Of a DNA stretch of 64,000 nucleotides, positions 6,246-46,493 are shown piece after piece. Source of the DNA: Nanohaloarchaea archaeon B1-Br10_U2g1 (lineage in GTDB: Archaea; Nanohalarchaeota; Nanosalinia; Nanosalinales; Nanosalinaceae); NCBI GenBank assembly GCA_001563875.1, contig LKMN01000002.1:1-64000 (forward strand). The letters are read 5' to 3'. The notes beneath the pieces were generated by a model. It ran no database searches and was not told where the DNA came from. It saw nothing but the letters and a program-made list of their open reading frames with translations. Position numbers and translations under genes: made by a program. How positions within the stretch are numbered: position 1 is the stretch's first letter; each line of letters opens with the position of its first letter.

Positions 6246-7978
6246 AGAGAAAAGGAGTGGGCTATATGATCGAGGCAATTGTCTCGATGATGATACTGCT
6301 TGTGTTCGTTTTAGGAAACAGCGTAAGCTCTCCTGTACAGGACTGGGGTGAGACACAGGATCAGATAACAGCCAACGACCTAACCTACACTTTGAAAGAG
6401 ACAGGAGATTTAGAAAAATTCATGGTAAGGAATGAGCCAGGATCTCTCGAAACAACTGTCTCCACATTAACACCTAGAGATCTTGAAATATCAGGAAGTA
6501 TTGAAGGTCTACCGTTAGACGATATATACATGGGTTTCCATGCCCCGGAAGATGAGCGACATACACTGGAGCTGAAGGACGATATAACCCAAGACGAGTG
6601 TTACCAGAATGATGAGTTAGAGGAGCTCGAGGAAAGAGCCGGACTAGAAGGACTGAATCCTCAGATAGAGAGAACTGAAGGATCTGGACCTAACGGAGTT
6701 TATCTCTACTTTGTAGATCAGAACCCTGATACCTCAGGGTTTGATGAAAGCCTATGGGTGGACAACGGCACAAGATGCCAGTTCGCTGACTCAGACGGCC
6801 CAATTCTCCAAGACGAGTTCTACTTATGGGGGGACAAGGACGAAGACTACGAGTACTACGAGTTTAAAGATATAGATGTTGGAGGTCAGGAGTTCACAAC
6901 CTATGAGGCAACTCAGGTATACCGGATAAAACAGAAGATGAACAAGCCTGTGAACAGCGTAGAGACCTCAGCAGAGTTTGAAACATTCAGCTTCGACGAG
7001 AAGAATATACACGAATACGATATTATAGGACTCCGTAACAATGTTGATGAGTTCAATCATGGAGGTGAGAGAGCCCAGTTAGAAGAGTTTCTCGACAACA
7101 AGCCGGCACTATTACTAACAGATATACAGGAAGAACAGTTGGAGGAGGGATTGTTAGGAGAGACAGGTTTTGAACACGTGAACACCGGTAGAGAAGGAAA
7201 TTTAGGGACACCTCTTTTAGGTACTAACAGTGACGGACTGGAGATAGAGACCTATTTCAACGGATTAGATGGAGATCTAGACTCTTTGAGTGTGGAGCCA
7301 CAGGGACAGATATCTTCCTCAAACTCCGATAGATTTATGGAGGAAGACCACTTACTTTATGACTCCAACCAGAGATACACCCTAGAAGAGTTCTATGCAG
7401 AGAACAACAGTATGGAACAGGTAGATAACCTTGGTGTGATAGATGGCGTGCCAACGAGCAGATGTGTAGAAGAGTACGGTGAAGAAGCGGTAACAATAGG
7501 AGATATAGAGTTTGCAACAGACCATGGAACGGAGACTTATGAGGCTATAAGCACCCAGATGGCAGGAGACCACGGAGACTGCGGAGAGCTTAGAGCGGTG
7601 AACATAGATCTTGGCAGCGGCTTCAGCGATCTAGGACCCTTATTACCAGGAGAAAGTGTGGAAATCGAAGATAGGACATATACAGTAGTAGTAGATGGAG
7701 AGGATACTGTAGAATTCTTGTTCCAAGGCAACGATGAGGTAGAGATTTTAAACTATAGAGAGAGCTTTGAAGGCTTTTCTTCTGACAGGCTCGCAAGACT
7801 GCCTCACCAAGAAGAGTACAACAAACAAGATAGGAGGCTTATAGCATCGATGATATACTGGCTTGCAAGAGAAGACACCGAGTTCGGGGAGGATAGTTAC
7901 GATGTATCCAGTTCTGTAGTAGGCGGTATAAACCATGAAACATATATGTCATACAGAGCATCTCTAAGGTGGGAATAG
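6239..7978 (+). CDS. large class III signal peptide surface protein (pilin 5, possible tip adhesin)
   Basis: At 579 residues this is by far the largest pilin-like protein of the operon. It starts MVERKGVGYMIEAIVSMMIL, with Arg-Lys-Gly as the cleavage site and one hydrophobic helix; no other membrane segment is visible. The remaining 550 residues are acidic, with paired cysteines (residues near 122 and 172, and again near 405 and 450), and would lie outside. Size and position in the operon resemble non-pilin tip or adhesin subunits carried by minor pilin scaffolds. No known adhesin domain was recognised. Its ATG overlaps the previous gene by seven bases. Confidence 0.7.
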   Translation: MVERKGVGYMIEAIVSMMILLVFVLGNSVSSPVQDWGETQDQITANDLTYTLKETGDLEKFMVRNEPGSLETTVSTLTPRDLEISGSIEGLPLDDIYMGFHAPEDERHTLELKDDITQDECYQNDELEELEERAGLEGLNPQIERTEGSGPNGVYLYFVDQNPDTSGFDESLWVDNGTRCQFADSDGPILQDEFYLWGDKDEDYEYYEFKDIDVGGQEFTTYEATQVYRIKQKMNKPVNSVETSAEFETFSFDEKNIHEYDIIGLRNNVDEFNHGGERAQLEEFLDNKPALLLTDIQEEQLEEGLLGETGFEHVNTGREGNLGTPLLGTNSDGLEIETYFNGLDGDLDSLSVEPQGQISSSNSDRFMEEDHLLYDSNQRYTLEEFYAENNSMEQVDNLGVIDGVPTSRCVEEYGEEAVTIGDIEFATDHGTETYEAISTQMAGDHGDCGELRAVNIDLGSGFSDLGPLLPGESVEIEDRTYTVVVDGEDTVEFLFQGNDEVEILNYRESFEGFSSDRLARLPHQEEYNKQDRRLIASMIYWLAREDTEFGEDSYDVSSSVVGGINHETYMSYRASLRWE

Positions 7979-11332: not shown

Positions 11333-12169
11333 TCACTCTTCCATATAGACAGTTCTGATAGGATAAGGAATGTCTATGCCTTCTCTATCAAACTTCTCTT
11401 TAACCAGCTGTGTTACCTCGGAAGAGGCCTTTACAACGCTTGCCCTACCGGTATCGGTCCATCCTCTAAGCCTTAAGTCTACGGATGAACCTCCGAGTTC
11501 GTCTGTCAGTATCTGAGGCTCGGGCTCGGACTCAACCGTTTCAGCATCATCAAGTGTCTCCCTTGCAAGATCTCTAGCTTTCTGTATATTGTCGTCGTAA
11601 CTTATTCCTACCACCACATCAAATCTTCTTTTCTCGTAGCCTGTGTTGTTAACAACAGTTTCGTTGTACAGTTTGGAGTTAGGAACAATGACCTTTCTAC
11701 CGTCAAAAGTCTTTATATCGGTAGCTCTAACCCTTATATCCTCTACAGTACCTGCTTCATCTTCTGCGGCTATCTGATCTCCTATCTTGAAAGGACGGTT
11801 TATCATTATCATAAGTCCCGAGATAAAGTTAGCAATCATTTCTCTAAGCGCAAAAGATATACCTAAGCCTATAAGACCTACAGCTGTACCTAAGGCTGAC
11901 GGAGGGACTCCGAAAACTCCTAAAATCACTATGAAAGCTACTGAATATATTAAGTATGAAGTAAGTTTTTTAGCTGTCGCTGAAGCGTGCTTTGTCCCAT
12001 TGCTATGCTCTATTGATCTTTCAACTATCTTGTTTGAAGCTCTATCCACTACCAGCGCAAGAGCTAAAACAACTGCAGCCCAAGCTACCGCTTGTAAAGT
12101 TATATCAGGCGGAAGAAGCTGTGCTACATCCTCCGATACTAGCTCTCCTGTAGAAGCAATCGAATCCAT
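11333..12169 (-). CDS. mscS: small-conductance mechanosensitive channel, MscS family
   Basis: A 278-residue channel that releases small solutes when membrane tension rises after hypo-osmotic shock. Three membrane segments are visible (about 28-45, 70-92, 95-125). The last carries the pore helix (SALGTAVGLIGLGISFALREMIANFISGLM region). The beta domain (FKIGDQIAAEDEAGTVEDIRVRAT) and the C-terminal alpha/beta domain follow. Length matches E. coli MscS. It is single and divergent from the E1-like gene. A second, very different MscS-like protein is at 35396-36961. Confidence 0.93.
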   Translation of the reverse strand: MDSIASTGELVSEDVAQLLPPDITLQAVAWAAVVLALALVVDRASNKIVERSIEHSNGTKHASATAKKLTSYLIYSVAFIVILGVFGVPPSALGTAVGLIGLGISFALREMIANFISGLMIMINRPFKIGDQIAAEDEAGTVEDIRVRATDIKTFDGRKVIVPNSKLYNETVVNNTGYEKRRFDVVVGISYDDNIQKARDLARETLDDAETVESEPEPQILTDELGGSSVDLRLRGWTDTGRASVVKASSEVTQLVKEKFDREGIDIPYPIRTVYMEE

Positions 12170-31532: not shown

Positions 31533-32192
31533 TTACTGGTGTTTGAAGTACTTATTGAGCTGTTCTTTTCTGTCCGAAGGACCTACCAGAAGAAGGTTGT
31601 CCCCTACATCAAGACCTACGTTCATATCCTTGGTTATAGTCTTACCTCCCTGAAGTATAGATACGATCTTGAAACGTTCAGGAAAAGAGTCTTCTCCTGT
31701 TATCTCGTCGACAGTTTTACCTCTAAGATCAGAGTTCTTCCTTACAGAAGCCTTTACAACCTCGTTTTCCTCCGAAAGGTTAGCAAGCTTCACAAGGTAG
31801 GGATGCTCTATACTGCTCATAAACTCTGAAAGCATCAGACCTGTATGCGCTATAGTTTCGGCCTCTATCAGTTCAAAGGCCTCCATATACTCGTCGTTGA
31901 CAACCTTGGATATAACTTTAGGAACGCCGTACTTCTTCGCTAAGGAACAGACAACCATGTTCTCGTTATCATTGTTTAAAACAGATATAAGCGCGTCGGC
32001 CTCGGTTACTCCCGCATCCTCTAAAGCGGAAAGGGTTGCAGGATCTTTGTTTATCACTGTTGCTCCTGAAGACGCGTACAATCTTTCACATTTATCCTGA
32101 TCCTCATCTATAACCACTACGTCATGCCTGTCCTCAAGCTGTTTGACAAGCCTTCTTCCAAGAGTGGTTATCCCTGATACGATTATGTACAT
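31533..32192 (-). CDS. trkA: TrkA regulatory subunit of K+ uptake
   Basis: A 219-residue RCK protein: a Rossmann domain (residues 1-130, starting MYIIVSGITTLGRRL with part of the Gly-rich loop, and VVIDEDQDKC with the acidic residue that binds NAD ribose) and a C-terminal TrkA-C domain (about 140-215). It gates TrkH in response to nucleotides. It is encoded two bases after trkH. High K+ uptake is expected of salt-in halophiles. Confidence 0.94.
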   Translation of the reverse strand: MYIIVSGITTLGRRLVKQLEDRHDVVVIDEDQDKCERLYASSGATVINKDPATLSALEDAGVTEADALISVLNNDNENMVVCSLAKKYGVPKVISKVVNDEYMEAFELIEAETIAHTGLMLSEFMSSIEHPYLVKLANLSEENEVVKASVRKNSDLRGKTVDEITGEDSFPERFKIVSILQGGKTITKDMNVGLDVGDNLLLVGPSDRKEQLNKYFKHQ

Positions 32193-32194
32193 CT

Positions 32195-33643
32195 CTATTC
32201 AGAGTCTTTGAACAGCTCGCTATTAAATATTGCCAGAAGCGGTATCATCTCAAGTCTTCCCGCAATCATGACTATAATCCATGTAAACTTGGTGACAGCG
32301 GAGAGATCAACCATTTCACTACCCTCCATGTAGACCGGTCCCATGTTCCCTGCCGCGGAAACCGTCCCTGACAACGCCGCCATAAGATTTGTGCCCTCGG
32401 CGTAAAGCACGATAAGCGTTCCTAAGAAGATTATGGATACCCAGCTGAAGAACAGTACTGAGATCGTTCTTATCATAGAGCTGTCCAGTATCTCTCCGTC
32501 TATCTTCACCTCGTTAATAGCCGACTTAGGAAGCTTGTATGATCTCAAATGTGTTCTGAGAAGCTCTATCATAGCTTTCAAACGGAAAATCTTGAAACCT
32601 CCTGAAGTCGATCCAAGAGAGCCTCCTACAAACATTACGCCTATGAATGCTGCCTGTAAGCCAACTGTAAGCGATGTAAGTGTTATAGTTGAGTGTCCTG
32701 TTGAGGAAACCACTGCTGCAGACGTGAAAACTCCATCAAAAACCGCTCTCTCCGGTGTAAAGCCCTGACGAATCAGCTCAAAACAGGTAAGCACAGACAT
32801 AACTAGGAAAACCTTGAAGTAGAGCTTGAACTCTGCGCTTCTAAGGAATGATCCGTAATCCGTTCTAAGGAACCTGTAAAGAAGTACGAAGTTAACACCT
32901 CCCAGAAACATTAAGAGAATTGTAGCAGCTTCTATAGGAGTAGAGTTGAATCCTGCTATGCTTTCACCCATTGTAGAAAACCCTCCTGTCGAAATTCCGG
33001 AGAAAGAATGTAGAACAGAATCGAATGCCGGCATACCAAGCAGCACGTAGATACCTGCAAACAAGGCAGTTATGAAACCGTAAACTCTCCATAAGTCAGC
33101 TATGGATTTTGTCAGAGAAGGTCTTATAGAACCTGCATCTGTTTTATGGGACTCGGCAGAGTAAAGACTTCTTGTTGCAGCACCAGACTCTCTAATAACC
33201 ACTATGAAGAATGTTAGTATCCCTAAACCTCCTATCCACTGCATGAAAGATCTCCAGAAAAGTATTGAACTTGGTAAGGTCTCTGGTGCTAAAACTATAG
33301 ATATTCCTGTAGTTGTGAGACCGGCTGTAGCCTCAAAGACCGCATCTATTATATTTAAGTGTGTTAGAAATGGTATTGCTCCGAATACAACCGCAAGCAC
33401 CCATCCAAGAACCGTGGCAAACATCGCCTCGGATATATCCGGATTTCTAGAGCTTTCACCCTGTTTACCAGACATATAGATTGAATATCCCAGCACTAAA
33501 GAGGAGACGGAGGCAACTATAAATCCCGAGATCTGAGCCAGACTTTCTCCATAGTAAACACCGACTATTATTGGCAGAGCTACTAAAACAGCGAAAATCT
33601 GGAGGAAAGCACCTACAATCCTCAGAATTACCGAGCTCCTCAT
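32195..33643 (-). CDS. trkH: TrkH K+ transporter
   Basis: A 482-residue K+ translocating subunit with about ten or more membrane helices. The four selectivity-filter loops are recognisable: TTTGIS (about 111), STGGFS (about 219), STGHST (about 315) and AAGNMG (about 435). It forms an operon with trkA. It is divergent from the ribosomal protein S6e gene across a 123-bp region. Confidence 0.94.
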   Translation of the reverse strand: MRSSVILRIVGAFLQIFAVLVALPIIVGVYYGESLAQISGFIVASVSSLVLGYSIYMSGKQGESSRNPDISEAMFATVLGWVLAVVFGAIPFLTHLNIIDAVFEATAGLTTTGISIVLAPETLPSSILFWRSFMQWIGGLGILTFFIVVIRESGAATRSLYSAESHKTDAGSIRPSLTKSIADLWRVYGFITALFAGIYVLLGMPAFDSVLHSFSGISTGGFSTMGESIAGFNSTPIEAATILLMFLGGVNFVLLYRFLRTDYGSFLRSAEFKLYFKVFLVMSVLTCFELIRQGFTPERAVFDGVFTSAAVVSSTGHSTITLTSLTVGLQAAFIGVMFVGGSLGSTSGGFKIFRLKAMIELLRTHLRSYKLPKSAINEVKIDGEILDSSMIRTISVLFFSWVSIIFLGTLIVLYAEGTNLMAALSGTVSAAGNMGPVYMEGSEMVDLSAVTKFTWIIVMIAGRLEMIPLLAIFNSELFKDSE

Positions 33644-33703: not shown

Positions 33704-33766
33704 GTTTGTATACGCATCTCCGAACTGCTCGGAACGAAAACTGACTGAGCAAAGGTGAAACTAATA

Positions 33767-34138
33767 ATGAAGATTACAGTAGGAGATACAGACGGTAAAA
33801 CACACCAAATCGAACTAGAAGAAAGCTCAAAAGTAGTTGGAAAGAAGATTGGAGACAGCTTTGAAGGAGGAATAGTAGGCTTAGACGGCTACAAACTTGA
33901 GATAACCGGTGGAAGCGACAAACAAGGGTTCCCTATGAGAGAAAGTATCGAAGGAACAGGTAGAAGAAGTATACTACTCAAAAAAGGATCCGGAATAGAC
34001 GAGGAAGAAAACGTTAGAAAGAGAAAAACCGTTAGAGGAAACACAGTCTCCGACGAAATAGAACAGCTAAACACCAAAGTTGTAGAAGAAGGAAATGAAT
34101 CTGTAGAAGATCTTCTATCAGAAGAGGAAGAGGAGTAA
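33767..34138 (+). CDS. rps6e: ribosomal protein eS6
   Basis: The 123-residue protein begins MKITVGDTDGKTHQIELEE and carries the S6e core (VGKKIGDSFEGG, GSDKQGFPMR, RKRKTVRGNTV). ATG 33767 is preceded by AAAGGTGA at good spacing; a GTG at 33755 would overlap that ribosome binding site and adds a non-conserved tail. First gene of the archaeal S6e-eIF2 gamma-PIN-Rpo7 supercluster. Confidence 0.94.
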   Translation: MKITVGDTDGKTHQIELEESSKVVGKKIGDSFEGGIVGLDGYKLEITGGSDKQGFPMRESIEGTGRRSILLKKGSGIDEEENVRKRKTVRGNTVSDEIEQLNTKVVEEGNESVEDLLSEEEEE

Positions 34139-34141
34139 AAA

Positions 34142-34163
34142 CCTTTTCAACCCTGTAAAAAGG
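34142..34163 (+). promoter_or_regulatory. hairpin that may hide the eIF2 gamma ribosome binding site
   Basis: CCTTTT (34142-34147) can pair with AAAAGG (34158-34163), and the 3' arm includes the AAGGAG ribosome binding site of the following gene (ATG 34177). The stem could either end the S6e transcript or control access to the site. The stem is short and AT-rich, so this is weak. Confidence 0.25.
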
Positions 34164-34176
34164 AGTTAAAACTATA

Positions 34177-35364
34177 ATGACTGAGATACCTGAGGCCAAC
34201 ATCGGACTAGTAGGACACGTCGACCACGGAAAAACAACTTTAACGAACGCATTATCCGGTAAATGGACCGACGAACACTCTGAAGAACTGAAAAGAGGCA
34301 TCACCATAAGACTAGGTTACGCCGATATAACCTATTACAGAGATAGTGACGGAAACCTCAACGTAAAAGAAGAAGGTGACGCCGAGAGAACTATTTCTCT
34401 GGTAGACGCTCCAGGACACGAAACACTGATGGCCAACGTGCTTTCAGGAGCAGCAATAATGGACGGAGCAATACTTCTAGTCGCTGCAGATGAAGAGTGT
34501 CCTCAACCTCAGACAAGAGAGCATTTAGCGGCTCTAAATATTGCAGGAGTTGAGAATATAGTAGTTGTACAGAACAAGATCGATAAAGTTTCTAAAGAAG
34601 AAGCTAAAGACAATTACAGACAGATAAAAGAGTTCTTGAAAGGTTCTGTTGCCGAAGACGCTCCTATAGTACCTATATCAGCACAACAGGAGATTAACAT
34701 CGATGCTCTTCTGGAAGCTGTAGATGAAGAGATATCTACACCAGACAGAGATAGAGATGCGGACCCGAAGATGTTGTTAGCGCGTTCATTCGATATAAAC
34801 AAGCCCGGAACTAAGACAGAAGATCTGAACGGCGGCGTAATCGGCGGAAGCCTTGTTAAAGGAGAGTTAGAAGTAGGAGATAAAATTGAGGTAAGGCCCG
34901 GAGTACGTATCGGCGGAAAATGGAAGCCTGTTAAGACAAAGGTAAGAAGTATACTACAAGGAGGAAAACCAGTAGAGAAAGGAAGTCCAGGGGGATTACT
35001 GGCTGTAGAGACAGAACTGGATCCTGCTCTGGCTAAGTCCGATGGATTATCTGGAAACGTTTTGGGCGTTGAAGACAAGCTTCCTGATACTTTAGATGAG
35101 ATAGAGGTTGAGGTAGAGCTTATGGAGAGACTTGTTGGTTCAGAAGACGAGAAGGAGATTGAGAATATCAAGAAGAAAGAACCTTTGATGCTTAACGTTG
35201 GAACAGGTAAGTCCGCAGGGATAGTAACAGGTCTAGGTAAAACCGTTGAACTCAACCTTAAAGCACCCGTCTGTGCCGAGGAAGGAGACCGAATCGCGAT
35301 TTCGAGGCAGATAGGCTCTAGATGGAGGCTTATTGGCCACGGCAAAATTGTGTCTACACAGTAG
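34177..35364 (+). CDS. eif2g: translation initiation factor aIF2 gamma
   Basis: A 395-residue GTPase that, with the alpha and beta subunits, carries initiator Met-tRNA to the small ribosomal subunit. G1 GHVDHGKTT (about 13-21), G2 region GITIRLGYAD, G3 DAPGHE, G4 VQNKID and G5 SAQQ are all present, followed by domains II and III. The zinc knuckle usually found between G1 and G3 is replaced by a short loop without cysteines. It ends with a T-run (35373-35379) that could terminate transcription. Confidence 0.95.
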   Translation: MTEIPEANIGLVGHVDHGKTTLTNALSGKWTDEHSEELKRGITIRLGYADITYYRDSDGNLNVKEEGDAERTISLVDAPGHETLMANVLSGAAIMDGAILLVAADEECPQPQTREHLAALNIAGVENIVVVQNKIDKVSKEEAKDNYRQIKEFLKGSVAEDAPIVPISAQQEINIDALLEAVDEEISTPDRDRDADPKMLLARSFDINKPGTKTEDLNGGVIGGSLVKGELEVGDKIEVRPGVRIGGKWKPVKTKVRSILQGGKPVEKGSPGGLLAVETELDPALAKSDGLSGNVLGVEDKLPDTLDEIEVEVELMERLVGSEDEKEIENIKKKEPLMLNVGTGKSAGIVTGLGKTVELNLKAPVCAEEGDRIAISRQIGSRWRLIGHGKIVSTQ

Positions 35365-35395: not shown

Positions 35396-36961
35396 ATGAT
35401 GGTTATGGTAGACTTTCTAACTCCTTTAATTGATTTTATAAGCAGAGATCAAGCCACGGTACAAATACTAGTTACTCTTTCAATTTTGGTTCTAGGCCAT
35501 CTACTCACGAAATTTGTTAAGACGGTCGGTAGAAGGGTCTGGGTAGCAAGAGAAGGCATCACAAAAAAGGAGTTAAGGAGAAGACAGGAAGGACTGAAAT
35601 ATGTAGGGTATATCATAGATGCATCCGCCATATCAGTAGCTCTACTTTACCTAAATACAGGCATAACAGGTTCAGTAGTTGAGCAGGCAGCCGAGTTTGC
35701 ACCAAACCTGCTTTCAGCGATGCTTATCGCAGTCCTTGGAATACTAACGATACAGATAGTTACACGTGCTGGAGAGAACTTCCTAAGAACGATGGGAGTT
35801 CAAAACTACTTCAGAGAGTTAGGAGTCTCCTACAACGGAATTAGAATTATAACAGGTTTCTTCAAGGCTTTCCTATACCTACTGCTTCTCCAAGTGGCGC
35901 TAGACCAGCTTGGGGTAGGAGACAGCTTTGTAAGAGAACTTATTACAGCCTCATCATGGGCAGCAGCGTTCCTAGTAGCAGGACTACTCATATACGGTTT
36001 TAAAGATCTTATAGCAAACTTCGCAGCAGGTATCTACCTAAAGAGTTCAAGACTAGTCAAACCTGGAGAGAAAGTGTATCTTGAGGAAGATTCTGGTGAG
36101 ATACGTAGCGTAGATCTTTTCAGCACCGAAATAGGTACCGGAGAAGGATACAATCTTGTGACACAGAACAAGAACATTATGAATGCAGATCTCAAGTTCA
36201 AGAGAACCAAAGGAGATCTAAACACCTTAGAAGATATCAAGAGATACTTCACAGCCCAAGATCCTTCTTACTGCGGTCCTGCATCCGCAGAGATGGCGTT
36301 AAACATCTTCGGATACCGTTTCAACCAGCAGGAGATAGGAGATATGGCCGGTACAGAGAAAGGGGTTGGAACAATGCCGGACGAATTAATAGAGGTTGTA
36401 GAGAACTTGACTGACGAAGAAGTTAGAGGTGCTTACGTAGAGTACGACAAGATAACGGATCTATCAGACGAGTTCAAGACCTGGTTTAACGACGGAGCTC
36501 TAATAATACCTAACTTTGCGAAGCCGGTACTTTTCCCTCAGGCAGATACAGCGCATTACAGCCTATGTGTGGCCGTAGAAGGAGATGAGCTACTGGTAGT
36601 TGATCCTAGCGCCAACACTGTTTCAGGCGGGGTATACTACGCGGACAGCTCGGAGATGCTGGAAGCTATGGGAGAGTTCGAAGGCCGTACCAGAGGATAT
36701 ATCGTACTGGCTCCAGAGGATACAACCGCGTACTGGAGAATCAAAGAGGACCTTATTTACTCGGACGAGAACCTGTACGACCATATAAATAAGAACATGG
36801 AGCTTCAGCTCCGTAGAATCCTGAGACAGGGCAGAATACTGAAGAATGTTCTACCGGAAGATCTTCAGGACTACATAGAGAAGTGGGAGAAGGATGAAAA
36901 AGTTGGAAGGGTATGGAAGCCTGACGGAGGGGAAGAAGATGAAGACACTGATACTAGGTAA
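35396..36961 (+). CDS. MscS-like channel fused to a C39-type cysteine peptidase domain
   Basis: A 521-residue fusion. Residues 1-205 contain about five membrane helices; 200-265 match the MscS pore-to-beta-domain region (KDLIANFAAGIYL, VKPGEKVYLEEDSGEIRSVD). The usual MscS C-terminal alpha/beta domain is replaced by a papain-like C39 domain (about 275-440): Gln288 for the oxyanion hole, Cys293 in SYCGPASAEM, His387 in DTAHYSL and Asp403 in VVDPS, so the catalytic set looks complete. A helical, acidic tail ends the protein. The peptidase should face the cytoplasm. ATG 35405 would give a shorter start (MVDFLTPL) that fits a leaderless mRNA from the TTTATACT box at 35377-35384. The gene overlaps the first ATP-grasp gene by 23 bases. 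The combined function is unknown. Confidence 0.82.
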   Translation: MMVMVDFLTPLIDFISRDQATVQILVTLSILVLGHLLTKFVKTVGRRVWVAREGITKKELRRRQEGLKYVGYIIDASAISVALLYLNTGITGSVVEQAAEFAPNLLSAMLIAVLGILTIQIVTRAGENFLRTMGVQNYFRELGVSYNGIRIITGFFKAFLYLLLLQVALDQLGVGDSFVRELITASSWAAAFLVAGLLIYGFKDLIANFAAGIYLKSSRLVKPGEKVYLEEDSGEIRSVDLFSTEIGTGEGYNLVTQNKNIMNADLKFKRTKGDLNTLEDIKRYFTAQDPSYCGPASAEMALNIFGYRFNQQEIGDMAGTEKGVGTMPDELIEVVENLTDEEVRGAYVEYDKITDLSDEFKTWFNDGALIIPNFAKPVLFPQADTAHYSLCVAVEGDELLVVDPSANTVSGGVYYADSSEMLEAMGEFEGRTRGYIVLAPEDTTAYWRIKEDLIYSDENLYDHINKNMELQLRRILRQGRILKNVLPEDLQDYIEKWEKDEKVGRVWKPDGGEEDEDTDTR

Positions 36962-37748
36962 AGACTTCGAGACAGAGATGTTTGAGGAACACTTTGAGGA
37001 GGTAGAGGAAAAATCTCTCGCAGACACCATGATAACTATGAACGGTGGCAGCGAGGTCTTGATAAACGGAGAAGATATAGAGACCTGGGACGCTGTCTAT
37101 ATCCAGCCAGAGTCAAAGGCTGTACAGTTCTCAAGAGTCTTGATGGAGACACTTTCTCTCAAAGAGATACACTGTAATCTGAATACCTCTGTATTCATAC
37201 CTGTAAAAAAGCCTTACCTACTACAGGTACTTTCAGAAAAAGAGGTTAAAACCCCTGTTCAGACAAGTATCTCGACAGAGAAAGGTCTCACCGAGATCGA
37301 AAAAGAGGTTGAGTTCCCGGTTGTAACTAAAAAATACAGGAATCTAGATCTTGAGGAGACAAAGATATTTGATAATTTTGAGAATCTTAAGAAGTTCTGT
37401 GAAAATACCGAACACGGAGAAAGCTTTGTAGTAATCCAAGAGTATTCCGAAGAAGATGTTTTCGATATACTGTATATAGACGGAGATATTATCTCTCTAA
37501 AGCTAGAGGATAATCCTTGGAGCTCCGAAGAAGTAGTAACCGGAAAGTACCACAGTCTTTCAGACAAGCAGAAAGAGGTTGTAAAAGATGCTGTCTCAGC
37601 TATAGGCCTTAAGATATGTAGTTTAAGATTAAACGGTACAGAGGTCATGGATGTTAAAAACGATCCTCAGCTCGAAAGATTCAGAGAAGAGAGCGGTAAA
37701 AACGTTTATGGAAGAGTTGCATCAATGTTAGAAGGTGATCAAGATTAA
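36939..37748 (+). CDS. degenerate RimK-like ATP-grasp protein
   Basis: About 269 residues from ATG 36939, which has a GGAGGGG ribosome binding site; ATG 36894 lies inside the upstream gene and adds 15 unlikely residues. The fold matches RimK/GSHB ATP-grasp ligases: an N-terminal alpha/beta domain (WDAVYIQPESKA; TLSLKEIHCNLNTS), then FPVVTKKYRNLD where active enzymes have a Lys followed by a Gly-rich loop. Here the glycines are missing. The metal-binding end reads EVMDVKNDPQL instead of the canonical E-x-N-x-S-P-G. It therefore may be a pseudoenzyme that pairs with the intact ATP-grasp encoded next, or it may bind a different ligand. It overlaps both neighbours, so all three proteins are made together. 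Confidence 0.72.
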   Translation: MKTLILGKDFETEMFEEHFEEVEEKSLADTMITMNGGSEVLINGEDIETWDAVYIQPESKAVQFSRVLMETLSLKEIHCNLNTSVFIPVKKPYLLQVLSEKEVKTPVQTSISTEKGLTEIEKEVEFPVVTKKYRNLDLEETKIFDNFENLKKFCENTEHGESFVVIQEYSEEDVFDILYIDGDIISLKLEDNPWSSEEVVTGKYHSLSDKQKEVVKDAVSAIGLKICSLRLNGTEVMDVKNDPQLERFREESGKNVYGRVASMLEGDQD

Positions 37749-38619
37749 GTGTGCAGTAATATACGGAAGCAAGTCAGCACAACACCAGTACTTCATAGAG
37801 AAAGGTAAAGAGTACTTCGACAAAGTTCTCGGCGTTCCTCTAGAAGGTGTGAGAACGGTTTATGATGGAGATGGCGCTCATTTAATGTACAAGAACACCG
37901 ATCTATGTGAGTTCGATGCCGTATACCTAAGGCTTCTAGGAAACGACTTGATGTACGGCGAACATCTACCTGAAATACTGGATGAGAACAATGTATACAC
38001 CCAGCTTGAATCGGAAGCTCTAGCAATAGCCTCTAACAAGTTCCATATGATGAAGGTCCTAGGAGAGTCAGGTCTGCCTGTCCCCGATTCAATCTACACT
38101 CTTTCAACAGAAGAAACCGAAAGAGCAGGAGAAACATTAGGATACCCCAACATAATCAAGATAATATCAGGTTATGGAGGGAAAGGAGTAATCAAAGCAA
38201 ACTCTGAATCCGATATAGGACCCATAACTGATGCTTTAACACTTTTCGAACAGGAAATCTGTGTACAGGAGTATATTGACAATCCTGGCGAAGACATACG
38301 TATAACGGTAGTAGGAGACGAAACATTCGCATACAAAAGGGTTGGAGGAGAAGAAGAGTTCCGTTCAAATATATCTGCAGGAGGCAACAGAGAATCCTTT
38401 GAACCTTCTGAAGAAATGAAAGAATCTGCCATAAACGCTGCAAGACTCTGCGGCCTGGACATCGCAGGAATAGACATAATTGAGGATGAGAAAACCGGCG
38501 AAATTTATCTTGGAGAGGTAAACGCTTCGCCCGGCGTCGAAGGAACAGAAGAAGTTTTGGAAGTTGATATGGCCAAAAAGATAATGGCTTTTATCAAAAA
38601 GAAGGCCGCGGAGCGGTAA
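37735..38619 (+). CDS. RimK-type ATP-grasp ligase
   Basis: A 294-residue ligase of the family that joins an amino acid (often glutamate) or amine to a carboxylate via an acyl phosphate. The N-terminal domain (YGSKSAQHQYFIEKGKEYF; EFDAVYLRLLGNDLM) is followed by the ATP-grasp fold with Lys and an intact Gly-rich loop (IIKIISGYGGKGV, about 140-152), VQEYIDNPGEDIRI, and the metal-binding signature GEVNASPGVEG (about 261-271). The GTG start overlaps the preceding gene by 14 bases. It converges with the P-loop NTPase gene with 26 bases of overlap. Substrate unknown; no LysW, F420 or methanopterin genes are near, so the known roles of RimK relatives (LysX, CofF, MptN) have no support here. Confidence 0.85.
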   Translation: MIKIKCAVIYGSKSAQHQYFIEKGKEYFDKVLGVPLEGVRTVYDGDGAHLMYKNTDLCEFDAVYLRLLGNDLMYGEHLPEILDENNVYTQLESEALAIASNKFHMMKVLGESGLPVPDSIYTLSTEETERAGETLGYPNIIKIISGYGGKGVIKANSESDIGPITDALTLFEQEICVQEYIDNPGEDIRITVVGDETFAYKRVGGEEEFRSNISAGGNRESFEPSEEMKESAINAARLCGLDIAGIDIIEDEKTGEIYLGEVNASPGVEGTEEVLEVDMAKKIMAFIKKKAAER

Positions 38620-39643
38620 ACTCCTCAAAGCTTTGAGCCAGTATCTCTTTAGCCTCAGTCATCTCCTCCTCTGAGAAAGCGTTCAAAGCCGGAACCCCTA
38701 CATAATCTTCTACAGTATCTTTCCCAACGGTCGTATCAGTAATCGGTCCTGACATAAACGAGAGCTCGTAATCCAGATCAGTTAAAACCTTTTTTAGGCC
38801 GTATGCTCCCATAACATCTAAGCTTACACCACAAATACTGAATATTGAGTTCTTTACATCTAGATCTCTTAGAACTTCTTGGACATGGTAGTTACTGATC
38901 AGCCCTGCACCAAACTCTATAACTATGAAGTCAAGATCTTCGTTCCAAGCATGGTTGATCAAGCCTTTAGCAGAGGATATAACTATCTCAGGATCATCTA
39001 CAGTTGAAGGCAGTCCTGCATCAACAAAATCCAGTGATATCTCTGAACCGGATTCAAACATGCTTACTCGGTCTCTTTCTCTTGCGGAACCAGTAAGTTT
39101 CAAGGAACCAACTTCATACTCCTCTGAAAGGTTTTCAATTATCTTCGTAGCCAGTGTTGTCTTTCCTGCATCCATCCTGGTCGAGACAACGCCCACCAGT
39201 CTTGGCTCTCCTTCAATCTCTTCAACTCTTTCAATACCATAATCTTTCATGTTCAAGATCTTTTCGTCCTGTGAGACGTATCCAAGAAACTCTGCCTCAC
39301 ATGGCTCTCCTAAATTCTTTGCAGCGCTTAAACAGTCTCCGAAAACGCCTCCCGAGCCTATGAAATCTATTCGATCGCCTTCACTGACTTCATCAGGCAC
39401 TTCTCCAATATATCCTTTGACTCCTGCCCGGTTTCCAAACGTTCCAAGGACTATATCTCCCTCTTCAATCTCTACGAGCTCTCCTCCAGGGAGATCCAGT
39501 TCGTTGTAGTCGCCTTTTTTCTCTGTTATCTTTACTGCTACAACATCCCCTACCTGAGGTCTATGTCCGCTTTCAACTATCTCTGAACTATCTGTTATCT
39601 CTATCCTTTTCAGGCACGAGGCCTTGTAATCATGTCTAACCAT
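38594..39643 (-). CDS. P-loop NTPase (MobB/dethiobiotin-synthetase-like fold) with N-terminal beta domain
   Basis: A 349-residue protein. Residues 1-125 form a beta-rich domain (VGDVVAVKITEKKGDY; GTFGNRAGVKGYIG) with a conserved-looking Gly stretch SGGVFGDC. Residues about 145-345 form a P-loop domain with STRMDAGKTTLATKI as Walker A, a KLTGSARERDR segment, LDFVDAGLPST, and FIVIEFGAGL as Walker B-like strand. This arrangement resembles DUF1611-type and MobB-like P-loop proteins, some of which act on amino acid or cofactor substrates; the relation is by eye only. It overlaps the ATP-grasp gene tail-to-tail, which argues for a link. Specific function unknown. Confidence 0.65.
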   Translation of the reverse strand: MVRHDYKASCLKRIEITDSSEIVESGHRPQVGDVVAVKITEKKGDYNELDLPGGELVEIEEGDIVLGTFGNRAGVKGYIGEVPDEVSEGDRIDFIGSGGVFGDCLSAAKNLGEPCEAEFLGYVSQDEKILNMKDYGIERVEEIEGEPRLVGVVSTRMDAGKTTLATKIIENLSEEYEVGSLKLTGSARERDRVSMFESGSEISLDFVDAGLPSTVDDPEIVISSAKGLINHAWNEDLDFIVIEFGAGLISNYHVQEVLRDLDVKNSIFSICGVSLDVMGAYGLKKVLTDLDYELSFMSGPITDTTVGKDTVEDYVGVPALNAFSEEEMTEAKEILAQSFEEFTAPRPSF

Positions 39644-39706: not shown

Positions 39707-40093
39707 ATGACTAAGGAAATAATACTTGACACCAACTTTTTGGTAGCTCCTTTCCAGCTATCGATCAGTCTTTTTGAGGATATAGAGGAGCTGTATCCTT
39801 TTGCAGAGATATACACTATAGACGACGCTGTTGAAGAGTCCAAAAGCATTAAGTCAGGTAAATACGGCGACTTAGTGGAAAAGCTTATTGATACACAAGG
39901 AATCAAAGTCTTGGAGACCGAAGGAGAAGGCAGTGTCGATGATCTTCTTGTAAAGCTTTCTGACGAATACATTGTGGCTACTAACGACAAAGAGCTGAAA
40001 CAGAGAGTACTGGACAGAAACAATCCTGTGATGATCATAAGGTCAAGAAGCCATCTAGAAGTTGTTAAAGGCCGAGAGCACGACCTCGGCTAA
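39707..40093 (+). CDS. PIN-domain RNase, Fcf1/Utp24-like
   Basis: A 128-residue PIN nuclease. Acidic metal ligands are in place: LDTNFLV (Asp8), an acidic EELYPFAEIYT/DAVEES stretch (Glu near 44), and IVATNDKELKQRV (Asp near 101). Archaeal members located between eIF2 gamma and Rpo7 are the Fcf1/Utp24-like type, tied to small-subunit rRNA processing. Here the neighbouring gene order is kept on the Rpo7 side but broken by 4 kb on the eIF2 gamma side. Confidence 0.85.
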   Translation: MTKEIILDTNFLVAPFQLSISLFEDIEELYPFAEIYTIDDAVEESKSIKSGKYGDLVEKLIDTQGIKVLETEGEGSVDDLLVKLSDEYIVATNDKELKQRVLDRNNPVMIIRSRSHLEVVKGREHDLG

Positions 40094-40123
40094 ACCCTTC
40101 TCCAGACTATAAAAACAAACACA

Positions 40124-40131
40124 ATTTAAAA
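40124..40131 (+). promoter_or_regulatory. TATA box of the Rpo7-Spt4-S24e-S27ae unit
   Basis: ATTTAAAA lies about 45 nt before the Rpo7 ATG (40172); a start near 40154 would leave a leader of about 18 nt that holds the AGGTCGAG ribosome binding site. A second TATAAAAA at 40108-40115 is an alternative. Confidence 0.45.
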
Positions 40132-40171
40132 CTTGCGAAGAATCCTGTAATTAGTTCTAGGTCGAGAAAAT

Positions 40172-40744
40172 ATGTACAAAAGGCTGACAATAGAAGACAA
40201 GGTCCGGGTGCCGCCTCAGCACTTCGGTGAAGATGTAGAGGACAGCGTTAAAGCAGGACTCGAATCAGAAGTAGAGGGAACAATAAACTCTGAGATAGGA
40301 GTAGTAATAGCTGTAGAAAAAGTTAACAGTATCGAAGGAGGCGATATAGAGCCGGAAGATGCAGGAGTACACTACGATGTAGAGTACGAAGCTATAGTAT
40401 ACGAACCAGAGCTACACGAAGTCGTAAACGGAGAGGTAGTCGATATAACAGAGTTCGGAGCATTCGTAAGAATCGGTCCTTTCGACGGTCTATGCCACGT
40501 CAGCCAGGTAATGGACGACTACGTTAACTACGATGAAGAGAACGCAATGCTTGTATCCGACGAAGAACAGTTCACACTGGAAATCGGGGACGTACTCACA
40601 ACAAGAATAATCGCGGTCTCACTCGACAAACAGGATACCAACAAAGTAAACCTGACAATGAGACAGCCAGGTCTAGGAAAACAGGAATGGATTGAAAAAT
40701 ACGAAGAAGAACAAGAAGAAGCCGAAGAGGCAGAAACTGAATAA
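40172..40744 (+). CDS. rpo7: RNA polymerase subunit Rpo7 (E')
   Basis: The stalk subunit of archaeal RNA polymerase (190 residues). It starts MYKRLTIEDKVRVPPQHFGED; residues 1-80 are the N-terminal RNP-like domain and 80-165 the S1 domain (VVNGEVVDITEFGAFVRIGPFDGLCHVSQ). A Glu-rich tail ends it, typical of halophilic versions. It works with Rpo4 in initiation and RNA binding. It heads a tight operon with Spt4. Confidence 0.96.
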   Translation: MYKRLTIEDKVRVPPQHFGEDVEDSVKAGLESEVEGTINSEIGVVIAVEKVNSIEGGDIEPEDAGVHYDVEYEAIVYEPELHEVVNGEVVDITEFGAFVRIGPFDGLCHVSQVMDDYVNYDEENAMLVSDEEQFTLEIGDVLTTRIIAVSLDKQDTNKVNLTMRQPGLGKQEWIEKYEEEQEEAEEAETE

Positions 40745-42591: not shown

Positions 42592-43184
42592 ATAAAGCAA
42601 AAAAAGTGATTCAAGAAGGCGGAATAGTAATTTATCCGACAGAGACAGCTTACGGCATAGCTGCAGATGCAATGAACTCGGAAGCTGTACGAAAAGTTTT
42701 TGAGGCGAAAAATCGCCCGAGAGACAAAGGATTAACTGTAATAGTAGACAGCTTAGAGACCGCTGAGAGGTATTCAGAGCTTTCAGAAAAGGAGAGAAAC
42801 ATTGTGAAAGAGTTTATGCCCGGTCCTTTAACACTTGTTACAGAGAAAAAAGATTCTGTACCCGATGTTCTAAACGAGAAATTTGTTTTCCGTATATCTT
42901 CCAGTCCTATAGCAAGAAAACTTGCTGAAAACGGACCTATAACCGCTACAAGCGCCAATATTTCTGGAGAAGATACAAGTTATTCTGTTGGAGATATCTC
43001 TGAAGAATTAAAAACAAGTGCAGACTACGTTATAGATACAGGGCTCTTAGAGCAGAAACCTACGTCTACCATAGTAGAGATACAGGTAGAAGAAATTAAG
43101 ATACATCGTAAAGGCCCTATAAGCAAGGAACAAATTGCAGACGTGTTAAAGAATGACAGCAGGGATAACGGCATTAGTAACTGA
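42582..43184 (+). CDS. sua5: Sua5/YrdC/TsaC threonylcarbamoyl-AMP synthase
   Basis: A 200-residue YrdC-domain enzyme that makes threonylcarbamoyl-AMP from threonine, bicarbonate and ATP, feeding Kae1. Motifs GGIVIYPTETAYGIAADA, KNRPRDKGLTVIV and ITATSANISG are all clear. It lacks the C-terminal Sua5 domain, so it is of TsaC length. It overlaps kae1 by 10 bases and the next gene by 32. Confidence 0.95.
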   Translation: MDLDKAKKVIQEGGIVIYPTETAYGIAADAMNSEAVRKVFEAKNRPRDKGLTVIVDSLETAERYSELSEKERNIVKEFMPGPLTLVTEKKDSVPDVLNEKFVFRISSSPIARKLAENGPITATSANISGEDTSYSVGDISEELKTSADYVIDTGLLEQKPTSTIVEIQVEEIKIHRKGPISKEQIADVLKNDSRDNGISN

Positions 43185-44850
43185 TTTTGCACTTCTAATA
43201 GCGACAGCAACTTTGCTAGGCATATTTGCTAAAAAGACGAAACAACCTACTATAATCGCCTATATTCTGACCGGTCTGGTTTTGGGACCTGTAGTCTTCG
43301 GAGTAGTAGGAGAATCAGAACTAACCTATCTTATGTCTGAACTTGGTTTGGGGCTCTTACTCTTCTTACTGGGAATTGAGATGAACTTGAAGGAAATAAA
43401 AGATATTTTACGCCCTGTAACCAGTATTGCAATATGGCAAACTGTTTTACAAACCTCTCTAGCCTTCATAATACCTTTATTTTTAGGCTTCACAATTATG
43501 GAAACTATAATCATTGCTCTATGTACTGTTTTCGGAGCTACTCCCGTAATTGTCAAATTGTTAACAGATAAAGACGAAATAACTAGTTTACCAGGAAAAA
43601 TCGATGTCGGAGTGCTGATACTTCAAGATATCTACTTAGTGATTATATTAGCTCTGCTTGCGGCAGACATATTCTCGAACCCCGATCTTGCAGGCATTGG
43701 ACTTACATTAGGAAAAATTTTCCTTCTAATGGGCATGATAACTGTGCTAAGTCTTGCATCTTCAAAATACATCCTGCCCGGATTATTCCGGATATCTGCA
43801 TCGAATAAACACACATTATTCATTCACGGAATTACATGGGCTTTCCTTTTCATATCTCTGGCCTTAGCACTGGATCTATCTGTAGAGGTAGGCGCGTTCT
43901 TAGCAGGGCTAGGCCTGGGACAGATACCTTATAGAGAGGAGCTTAAGGAACGTGTAAGGCCCTTAACCGACTTCTTCATGGTGATATTTTTCTCAAGTAT
44001 AGCGCTGACTATAAACCGAGATAATCTTTTCGCTTACTGGCAAGAAGCCATAGTAGCATCTATAATCCTCATGGTTGGTAATTTCCTAATAATGTTCTAT
44101 CTTATTGATAGGCAGCATTTTACACCAAAAACCAGCTTTTTAGGAAGCTTGAACATGACACAGGTTTCCGAGTTCTCATTAGTTGTAGGAGCCTTAGCGG
44201 TTAGTCAAGACTATGTTGGTAACGATATACTAGGCTACCTGTCACTTATGGCTTTACTGACTATGTCTACATCATCTTACTTAATCCAGTATAACCAGGA
44301 GATTTACCAGAAAGCTGCGCCTTATCTGAAGAGGTTTGAAGCCGAACATAAGAAAGATGTAGAGCTCAGAACACTGGATAACCACATAGTTATCGTAGGA
44401 TACAACCAGATTTCTAAACAGGTAATTTCTATACTAAAAGAATCTGATAAAGATATAGTGGTAGTTGACAGAAACAGCGATAATACGGCGCAACTAGAGT
44501 CTAGAGACGATATAGACTACATATACGGCGATATACAGCACAGCGAGATAAGAAAGACTGCAGGAGTGAAAAGAGCAGACCTTGTATTTTCTCTAAGTCC
44601 TGAGTACGAGATAAACAAGAAGATCGCTATTGAAAGCCCTGATGCAGCTCTATTTGTTAAAGCCAGAAGATTTGAAGAGGCGGCAGAACTTTACGAAGCC
44701 GGAGCACATTATGTACTACTGAAATCGGAAATCGCATCAGATCAGATAGTCGAATATCTAGAAGCTTACCTAGAGGACAAGTCTCTCTTCCTAGAAATGA
44801 CAGAAACCGATAAAGAACGAATAAGGTGGAGTGAAAAAGAAAAATGGTAG
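43153..44850 (+). CDS. CPA2 (Kef-type) cation/proton antiporter with C-terminal RCK domain, first copy
   Basis: A 565-residue membrane protein with about twelve helices (residues 1-385), including PTIIAYILTGLVLGP and LGLGLLLFLLGIEMNL, both typical of Kef/NapA CPA2 antiporters, and a cytoplasmic Rossmann (TrkA-N) domain from about 410. In that domain the nucleotide loop reads VGYNQISKQV, so two of the three usual glycines are lost and nucleotide binding may be weak. It exchanges Na+ or K+ for protons. ATG 43153 lies 32 bases inside sua5. The second copy overlaps it by seven bases. Confidence 0.88.
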   Translation: MTAGITALVTDFALLIATATLLGIFAKKTKQPTIIAYILTGLVLGPVVFGVVGESELTYLMSELGLGLLLFLLGIEMNLKEIKDILRPVTSIAIWQTVLQTSLAFIIPLFLGFTIMETIIIALCTVFGATPVIVKLLTDKDEITSLPGKIDVGVLILQDIYLVIILALLAADIFSNPDLAGIGLTLGKIFLLMGMITVLSLASSKYILPGLFRISASNKHTLFIHGITWAFLFISLALALDLSVEVGAFLAGLGLGQIPYREELKERVRPLTDFFMVIFFSSIALTINRDNLFAYWQEAIVASIILMVGNFLIMFYLIDRQHFTPKTSFLGSLNMTQVSEFSLVVGALAVSQDYVGNDILGYLSLMALLTMSTSSYLIQYNQEIYQKAAPYLKRFEAEHKKDVELRTLDNHIVIVGYNQISKQVISILKESDKDIVVVDRNSDNTAQLESRDDIDYIYGDIQHSEIRKTAGVKRADLVFSLSPEYEINKKIAIESPDAALFVKARRFEEAAELYEAGAHYVLLKSEIASDQIVEYLEAYLEDKSLFLEMTETDKERIRWSEKEKW

Positions 44851-46493
44851 ATATTATCAACACACTCACACTAATATTTGTAGCGTCATCCTTAACACTG
44901 TTTATAGCTAAAAGAACAGGTCATCCCGCAATACCTGCCTATATAATAGCAGGCATAATGTCTGGATACTTCATAACAGAACAAGAACAGCTTTTTACTC
45001 TTGTTCAGCTCGGCATAGCGTTTTTAGTATTCTTATTCGGGTTAAAGTTCGACCCTGAGAAGATTAGAGACGTTGCTGTAGACTCTCATATAGCCGTGCT
45101 AATCCAAGTTGTAGTAATAGGGCTTGTAGGGCTTCTGTCCGGTCTTATAATGGGTTTAGATATTTTCCACGCAACCATTTTTGCTCTAGCAGCAGCTTTA
45201 AGCTCAAGCTTAGTCGGAATAGAGCTCTTAGAGAAGGAAATTGACTTTAAACTCATACATGGCCGACTAACAGAATCTATGAATTTAGTCCAGGATTTGA
45301 TTGCTATTCTTGCAATAATAATCCTTAGTAGCACGGCCTTCGATGTATCAACAGTATCAACAACCCTGTTTTATGGCGCAAGTATTCTACTGGCCGGATT
45401 CTTGGTTCGAAGATACTTAATGGAATTTATTGCTAGCCAGGCAGAGAGTTCAAACGAGCTTCTAATGTTGATAAGCATAACTATATTAACCGGTTTCATA
45501 GCGGTTTCAGAATATTTAGGACTTTCTATGATCGTAGGAAGCTTTGCAGCCGGTGTAGCGGTAGCCAGATATCCTTATAACTTAGAGATTCTTGATGCTA
45601 TTTCTAGTTTAAAAGACTTTTTCTCAGCAATATTCTTTGTAACTCTGGGCGCATTATTGACGCTCCCTAATCTAAACGTGCTATTCTTGACCCTGCTCCT
45701 AGTTTTTCTAACAATCTTTATCCAGCCTTACCTAACCTCAGTGATACTTACTTATCTAGGATACGACTCACGTACAAGTTTTGCTACAGCAACAAGTACT
45801 GACCAAATCAGCGAGCTAGTGCTTATACTTGTTATACAACTCTATCTCGTAGGAAGCATTATCAGCGAACTTTACCAGGCAGTAATACTGGCGGCAACTA
45901 TCACAATGGTAACCTCAAGCTATACTACTCAGCACGAACAAGAGCTTTTCACAAGATTGAAAAAATACAACTTCCCGCTCACCGACACCTCTAGCCAGAA
46001 AATCAGTATAAAGGAGAGACTTGAAGACCACACAATTCTTTTAGGATACGACATACAAGGGAAGAAAATAGCTAGACTTCTAGATAAAGAGGACGAGCCC
46101 TTCATAATTTTAGAGAACGATCCAGAAAAAATCGATGAAATCAAGAAGAAAAAGTACAACTACATTTATGGAAACGCCTTCCAAGAAGAGATATGGACCC
46201 AAGCAGAGTACGAGAGAGCCAAACTAATTATCTCCACACCTCCATTCAGCAAAGTGTCTCAAAAAGTTGCCGAGCTTGAAACAGATGCGGATAAGATATT
46301 AACCGAGCAAGAGCTAGATAAGGCACGGGAGCTGCTACAGAAGAAAGATGTTATATATGTAAACGTTCCCGAGGTTGCTGCTGTAGACCAGATAACAGAA
46401 CACTTGATCGGTACATTAAACGATGTAAACTACAAAGAAAAACTGAGGAGGAAGTACATGTTAGACATAAGAAACTATCTAGAGTCAAACTAG
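44844..46493 (+). CDS. CPA2 (Kef-type) cation/proton antiporter with C-terminal RCK domain, second copy
   Basis: A 549-residue paralogue of the preceding protein: twelve or so membrane helices (PAIPAYIIAGIMSGYF; LGIAFLVFLFGLKFDP) and a Rossmann domain from about residue 405 with LLGYDIQGKKI, where the first and last glycines of the loop are kept. The RCK part ends in a helical tail. The overlap and paralogy suggest a heteromer or duplicated function in Na+/K+ homeostasis. It lies eight bases before bud32. Confidence 0.88.
   Translation: MVDIINTLTLIFVASSLTLFIAKRTGHPAIPAYIIAGIMSGYFITEQEQLFTLVQLGIAFLVFLFGLKFDPEKIRDVAVDSHIAVLIQVVVIGLVGLLSGLIMGLDIFHATIFALAAALSSSLVGIELLEKEIDFKLIHGRLTESMNLVQDLIAILAIIILSSTAFDVSTVSTTLFYGASILLAGFLVRRYLMEFIASQAESSNELLMLISITILTGFIAVSEYLGLSMIVGSFAAGVAVARYPYNLEILDAISSLKDFFSAIFFVTLGALLTLPNLNVLFLTLLLVFLTIFIQPYLTSVILTYLGYDSRTSFATATSTDQISELVLILVIQLYLVGSIISELYQAVILAATITMVTSSYTTQHEQELFTRLKKYNFPLTDTSSQKISIKERLEDHTILLGYDIQGKKIARLLDKEDEPFIILENDPEKIDEIKKKKYNYIYGNAFQEEIWTQAEYERAKLIISTPPFSKVSQKVAELETDADKILTEQELDKARELLQKKDVIYVNVPEVAAVDQITEHLIGTLNDVNYKEKLRRKYMLDIRNYLESN

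Follow-up and report, generated by a model that had tools for sequence, protein, structure and literature searches.

An MscS-C39 fusion encoded with a RimK-type ATP-grasp pair in nanohaloarchaea: a candidate channel-coupled ligase module

What could be the role of an operon in which a mechanosensitive channel is fused to a peptidase domain and followed by two ATP-grasp genes? The question is raised by positions 35,396 to 39,643 of the 64,000-nucleotide stretch of DNA analyzed here (the window), which belongs to contig LKMN01000002.1 of Nanohaloarchaea archaeon B1-Br10_U2g1 and for which an original prediction, made from the letters of the DNA, had proposed a coupled ligase, peptidase and efflux module. 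The answer we favor, tentatively and with a rough probability of 0.45, is that the operon would encode a RimK-type ligase module, coupled to a channel, by which a glutamate-type tag or peptide is built and trimmed. The conservation of this unit, along with the existence elsewhere of the same type of ligase pair partnered by a retropepsin, points to a tagging system, linked to the membrane, that is as yet undescribed. On re-reading of the sequence, the predicted open reading frames and gene overlaps, as well as the residues Gln288, Cys293, His387 and Asp403 that make up a full catalytic set in the C39 domain, were all as claimed.

The fusion protein scored above the curated Pfam cut-offs for both of its parts, with 29.8 bits (cut-off 22) for MS_channel_1st_1, 21.8 (20.2) for MS_channel_2nd and 29.4 (24) for Peptidase_C39_2 (PF13529). 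The third transmembrane (TM) helix and the beta-domain that constitute the MscS signature are present, PF00924 being matched by 27 of 28 fusions at E<=0.1, and the resemblance to MscS was also detected in a sequence search of the PDB (E ~4e-4) and with Foldseek (E 6e-7). The usual C-terminal alpha/beta cage domain of MscS is absent, its place being taken by the C39 domain and a helical tail with many near-invariant residues, such as R448, Y455, Y461 and W507. An AlphaFold monomer model (mean predicted local distance difference test score, pLDDT, 77; predicted template modelling score, pTM, 0.48; C39 region mostly 77-95) was matched by Foldseek to the phytochelatin synthase Alr0975, the peptidase domains of ComA/PCAT and MscS. 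The C39 part is predicted to adopt a papain-like fold (TMt 0.62 with Alr0975 and 0.75 with ComA), which speaks against the possibility, raised at the outset, of a fold other than that of a peptidase. The C39 domain is predicted to be cytoplasmic, like the C-terminal domain of MscS, from the five TM helices and the positive-inside rule: in 36 homologues, cytoplasmic loops average 8.4 and 3.9 Lys/Arg residues and the outer segments 0.2-0.4. The DUF3335 profile gave weak matches to a few fusions. No ATP-binding cassette (ABC) domain was found in the fusion, and no double-glycine precursor or other small precursor gene in the operon.

The two ATP-grasp genes that follow, ag1 and ag2, are not equivalent. 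The product of ag2 matched the Pfam RimK family with E 7.5e-36 and the profile of RimK family alpha-L-glutamate ligases (TIGR00768) with 155.8 bits, over the curated cut-off of 143.4, and stayed under all NCBIfam equivalog cut-offs (124.7 of 331 bits for the RpsF (bS6) ligase, 133.3 of 350 for MptN, 113.9 of 275.6 for LysX and 65.7 of 300 for CofF). Its top relatives in the PDB are the RimK proteins of E. coli and Pseudomonas, which have the EVNASPG motif in common with it, and by sequence it is nearest to RimK and LysX/ArgX, not to MdnB/PsnB. In 44 ag2 sequences, K102, K142, D187, R202, N212, D247 and N263 were kept in every one, R210 in 42 and E261 in 43. As for ag1, no Pfam match could be found in the window and its 16.9 bits with TIGR00768 are under the cut-off; it is a full-length homologue of ag2 (hhalign, 99.9%), and RimK 7qyr is the structure nearest to its model (pLDDT 90.8; E 3.9e-17). 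Because the Gly loop and the equivalents of D187, N212 and D247 are missing in nearly all ag1 sequences, this protein is probably a pseudoenzyme. The claim of two RimK-like genes was therefore right with respect to kinship, both being RimK paralogues, while that of two active ligases has to be given up, since ag2 keeps every catalytic residue and ag1 is degenerate. The same degeneration of ag1 in the retropepsin-linked pairs described below indicates that the association of an active and a degenerate copy is an old feature. Extra ATP-grasp genes are located near the operon in two genomes (L049:7612-8580; L042:4851-5771 and 6925-7794), that of L049 between ag2 and a gene for a P-loop protein.

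The distribution of the operon was evaluated in 19 genomes of the family, in 28 of the order (those 19 and nine others) and in a survey of 394 archaeal genomes. Fusion, ag1 and ag2 formed an operon in 19 of the 19 family genomes and in six of the remaining nine order members, the three without the fusion missing both ATP-grasps too; wherever the contig allows a view, the nanohaloarchaeal operon occupies the same slot between the eS6-eIF2gamma and PIN-rpoE' genes. In the survey, 37 genomes encoded the fusion, all of them with an ATP-grasp match, within 1.5 kb in 32. Outside the order, an ATP-grasp was present in 12 of 12 fusion genomes versus 71 of 366 (Fisher p=1e-9, uncorrected for phylogeny). 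Nine more genomes with a full-length fusion, from the phylum of genome G348, all encoded an ATP-grasp as well as a retropepsin; in total, an ATP-grasp is encoded by all 46 genomes with a full-length fusion, next door in 33. The recurrence of the operon throughout the family and well beyond it indicates that it is due neither to chance nor to an assembly artefact. The chromosomal contexts in which the genes are linked number at least five, distant archaeal families included: that of nanohaloarchaea and those of L049, L051/L069, L050/L052/L064/L065 and L085. The persistence of linkage across unrelated contexts is a stronger argument than Fisher tests that are uncorrected for phylogeny. The neighbors thus co-occur in the family, the order and other archaea, as the neighborhood comparison found, and the ligase, peptidase and channel module originally proposed is backed by both operon conservation and genome co-occurrence. 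In archaea the module is largely vertically inherited. A mobile element was discarded, there being no plasmid, phage or viral-contig relatives and the locus being the same throughout nanohaloarchaea, and so was an anti-phage defence system, with no PADLOC match.

The ATP-grasp pair was then followed where the fusion is absent, in 14 loci (L053, L054 and L072-L083). A RimB/RloA-like retropepsin was detected by BLAST directly beside the pair in 11 of them and by profile, with one in-frame stop, in a twelfth, L080; 37 of 55 strong retropepsin matches had an ATP-grasp within 1.5 kb. Fusion, ag2 and retropepsin are found together in four genomes (L050, L052, L064 and L065), and at L085 (genome G580) all three lie side by side, with retropepsin and ATP-grasp convergent with the fusion. 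At L051 the fusion-ag1-ag2 genes are near those for tyrosyl-tRNA synthetase, a nucleotidyltransferase-like protein and inosine monophosphate dehydrogenase, and this same slot holds a retropepsin with ag1-ag2 in L073-L075 and L083 (genes named by eye, with homology from BLAST), while in the tree the ag2 of L051 is sister to the retropepsin-linked ag2 clade (100/98). The exchange of fusion and retropepsin in this slot, along with the sisterhood of the ag2 sequences, is the best evidence that both work for one and the same ligase system. The 28 genomes sampled from the nanohaloarchaeal order yielded no retropepsin. At L080 (3318-6997) the ATP-grasp pair, an unfused MscS-like gene and one more ATP-grasp gene form a single strand-consistent cluster, and this adjacency hints at a channel link as well. 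Retropepsin-like domains in longer frames of 231-576 codons, possibly fusions, were noticed in G036, G058, G078, G098 and G118 (family f14).

A trait not foreseen in the original prediction is the loss of peptidase residues. In 36 aligned fusions the Gln-Cys-His-Asp set was intact in 26, whereas the catalytic Cys was lost in 10, along with the His in eight of these. All the losses are within the nanohaloarchaeal order, every fusion outside it being intact, and parsimony requires at least three changes on the tree. Identity of the C39 domain is 46% in the group with the dead domain and 79% in that of the window, while the TM, beta-domain and tail regions of the former are conserved about as elsewhere; the C39 fold must therefore have a role beyond cutting. 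RimB, which both trims the glutamate tails produced by RimK and stimulates RimK (PMC11957791), and the RloB component of RloABC, a system for hypo-osmotic tolerance in P. aeruginosa in which a retropepsin and an ATP-grasp accompany a membrane protein whose transglutaminase domain, papain-like in fold, is inactive (PMC12239564), are precedents for such a role. Twelve family members (ag2 of L024, L026-L033 and L036-L038) constitute a long-branched ag2 clade (100/100, branch 0.75) that has no P-loop gene and includes nine of the 10 dead C39 domains, which suggests that function has shifted within the family.

In the module as we envisage it, ag2 would extend the C-terminus of a protein or short peptide by an amino acid, with glutamate as the most probable one, or would make poly-glutamate, and the degenerate ag1 would assist it in a regulatory or structural capacity. 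The C39 domains, located in the cytoplasm in place of the usual cage of the MscS heptamer, would bind the ligase product and, given an intact triad like that of the window, cut it, while the MscS part would anchor the module at the membrane and tie it to tension. The coupling of channel and ligase is proposed from what is known of the parts, since RimK ligases add acidic residues onto carboxyl ends, retropepsins of this group cut glutamate-rich chains and MscS responds to tension; we likewise infer the substrate, the glutamate specificity, a physical complex, channel activity and the direction of control. A bolder version, doubtful as it stands, would make MscS the membrane-tension input of a reversible tagging process, in which stretch switches the C39 eraser or a docked RimK-type ligase so that a protein of the cell would record the osmotic state in the form of a peptide tag, the eraser having been swapped in archaea between two unrelated folds, the aspartic retropepsin and the cysteine C39 domain. 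Several facts weigh against the module as proposed. The fusion is unlinked from an ATP-grasp in 13 genomes, 12 of which have a retropepsin, so that C39 is not merely a retropepsin substitute, and the genomes in which the catalytic Cys is lost are themselves free of retropepsin, which implies that an eraser is not always needed; simple substitution was consequently rejected as the whole story. In addition, deletion of rloB or rloC rescues the retropepsin mutant (PMC12239564), so a membrane partner with a papain fold can support the ligase instead of opposing it. None of the operon genes encodes a substrate candidate, and the MscS function of the fusion is a putative one, assigned through homology alone.

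Other explanations were considered. The fold nearest to the C39 part is the primitive phytochelatin synthase Alr0975, in an acyl-enzyme structure with glutathione (E 3.7e-8), and nine of 28 fusions matched the Phytochelatin profile at E<=0.1. These data, and the fact that the hosts are brine dwellers, would fit ligases building a short amide or glutamyl peptide (an osmolyte or a thiol), to be hydrolyzed or transpeptidated by C39 and released through the MscS pore on hypo-osmotic shock. There are indeed peptide osmolytes, such as N-acetylglutaminylglutamine amide (NAGGN), that ATP-grasp enzymes synthesize and that have peptidases as partners. However, the system is also present in archaea with non-halophilic-looking proteins (L050-L052, by eye), nanohaloarchaea probably follow a salt-in strategy and have few biosynthetic routes, and RimK-type ligases paired with retropepsins act on glutamate-rich polypeptides, so a small-molecule product appears unlikely to us. 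The papain-fold domain could also be mainly a sensor or docking site, with ligase products or ag1 binding to it and gating the channel, and catalysis being secondary. This would account for the repeated loss of the triad with retention of the fusion and both ATP-grasps, for the low C39 identity of the dead group in a protein otherwise about equally conserved, and for the near-invariant residues of the tail, but the set is intact in most fusions, all those outside the order included, and in the window's group no other region is as conserved as C39, which indicates that catalysis matters there; we would not expect this explanation to prevail either.

The remaining two have less in their favor. 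The operon could be translation-linked, a ribosomal or initiation protein being tagged in the manner of RimK, with the neighboring eS6 or eIF2gamma as target, given that in nanohaloarchaea it comes after these two genes, that many eS6 proteins end in Glu/Asp runs and that E. coli RimK tags bS6. Archaeal eS6 and bacterial bS6, however, are not homologues, halophiles often have proteins with acidic tails, and the operon is elsewhere in other lineages (L049, L051, L050 and L085), which makes this improbable, even though a divergent ATP-grasp protein, CDC123, binds eIF2gamma (PMC4431377). Adjacency as a reason to consider eS6 (33755-34138, +) the ligase target was discarded as weak, the linkage being lost outside the order; the acidic ends of eS6 and its relatives invite such a target and do not support it. 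Most improbable is the maturation and export of a graspetide or other ribosomally synthesized and post-translationally modified peptide (RiPP), in which the ATP-grasps would modify a precursor, C39 would trim its leader and the channel would let the product out. The fold is close to that of the C39 domains of ComA/PCAT (TMt 0.72-0.76) and tandem ATP-grasps occur in microviridin clusters, but the ABC of C39 exporters is missing, ag1 is structurally nearest to RimK, ag2 has the affinities given above, and no precursor gene is visible, as had been noted originally: the operon genes overlap or abut, with nothing between them and just 31 bases upstream of the fusion. A RiPP cluster was rejected on these grounds. 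Peptide maturation and reversible tagging had been put forward side by side; the former loses weight for a ribosomal peptide, because there is no precursor gene, no room for it in the operon and the ligases are RimK-like and not graspetide-like, while the latter gains weight from the presence of the same ATP-grasp pair with RimB/RloA-like retropepsins.

The features of the locus are listed in Table 1. The start codon of ag1 is an ATG, 23 bases inside the fusion gene, and that of ag2 a GTG, 14 bases inside ag1. The P-loop gene overlaps ag2 tail-to-tail by 26 bases, an arrangement correctly described in the original prediction, but its standing as a core part was not upheld: just 12 of 60 sampled genomes carry one, and it must be considered accessory. 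In the nanohaloarchaeal group, C39 was intact in 12 of 12 loci with the P-loop gene and in four of 14 without it (Fisher p 2e-4, uncorrected for phylogeny). The window has a separate MscS-type gene (11660-11881, -, in a 279-codon open frame), so the fusion is not the sole MscS of the cell. Less than 10 kb from the operon there are also TrkA/TrkH-like potassium uptake genes (31533-33643, -) and two adjoining CPA2-type antiporter-like genes (43153-46493, +), recognized by eye from their translations.

Table 1. Operon and neighboring features in the window
Feature	Position	Strand	Description
MscS-C39 fusion	35396..36961	+	521 aa; from open reading frames, Pfam, alignment, topology and predicted structure
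Regions of the fusion			5 predicted TM helices; MscS TM3 and beta-domain, ~182-270; C39 papain-fold, ~275-442; conserved helical tail, 443-508
ATP-grasp 1 (ag1)	36939..37748	+	269 aa; degenerate RimK paralogue, likely pseudoenzyme; from hhalign, model and Foldseek
ATP-grasp 2 (ag2)	37735..38619	+	294 aa; RimK-family alpha-L-glutamate-ligase-like, catalytic set complete
Accessory P-loop NTPase	38594..39643	-	convergent; weak MobB / dethiobiotin-synthetase-like resemblance; subset of genomes only
eS6 and eIF2gamma genes	33755..35364	+	flank, outside the module
PIN-domain gene and RNA polymerase subunit E' (rpoE') gene	39707..40744	+	flank, outside the module

The module joins two fields that seldom meet, those of mechanosensitive channels and RimK-type amino-acid ligases, and raises a testable question, i.e. 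whether the papain-fold partner of a RimK-type ligase erases, binds or transfers its product. It also defines a function to be sought in symbiotic archaea with streamlined genomes of ~1 Mb, nearly all of which have retained these genes. No description of MscS-C39 fusions or of nanohaloarchaeal RimK was found in the open-access literature. Iyer and co-workers are said to have described in 2009 RLAN-RimK with GNAT-C39 (DUF3335) loci, with a RimK-like ligase beside a C39-like peptidase; the operon of the window has no RLAN or GNAT domain, which sets it apart from that description.

With MscS, YnaI, MscK and MSL channels the fusion shares TM3 and the beta-domain, according to Pfam, the PDB sequence search and Foldseek, but it has two extra N-terminal TM helices besides the replaced cage. 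With the C39 peptidases of ComA/PCAT and with Alr0975 it shares the fold and the Gln/Cys/His/Asp set, but it is joined to MscS and lacks an ABC transporter or a double-glycine precursor. The RimK-RimB(-RimA) system of Pseudomonas also pairs a RimK-family ligase, matched by ag2 over the catalytic core, with a protease, and archaeal relatives have RimB/RloA-like retropepsins beside the same ligase pair; unlike that system, the lineage of the window has neither retropepsin nor RimA, adds a degenerate ATP-grasp and uses as protease a C39 domain fused to MscS, and its ag2 falls below the RpsF-ligase equivalog cut-off. As in RloABC, there is a membrane protein with a domain of papain-like fold that can be inactive, a RimK-like ATP-grasp, a retropepsin in relatives and an osmotic theme, but an MscS channel stands in place of a protein with seven TM helices, C39 is predicted to be cytoplasmic while the transglutaminase domain is periplasmic, there are two ATP-grasps, and the retropepsin, missing in the window, has in other archaea an N-terminus with no evident signal peptide (by eye), in contrast with the secreted one. 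The module is an archaeal counterpart to RimK-RimB and to RloABC. It would work like both and is a member of neither as they are defined, since it dispenses with the retropepsin and relies on another membrane protein, another protease fold and a second, degenerate ATP-grasp.

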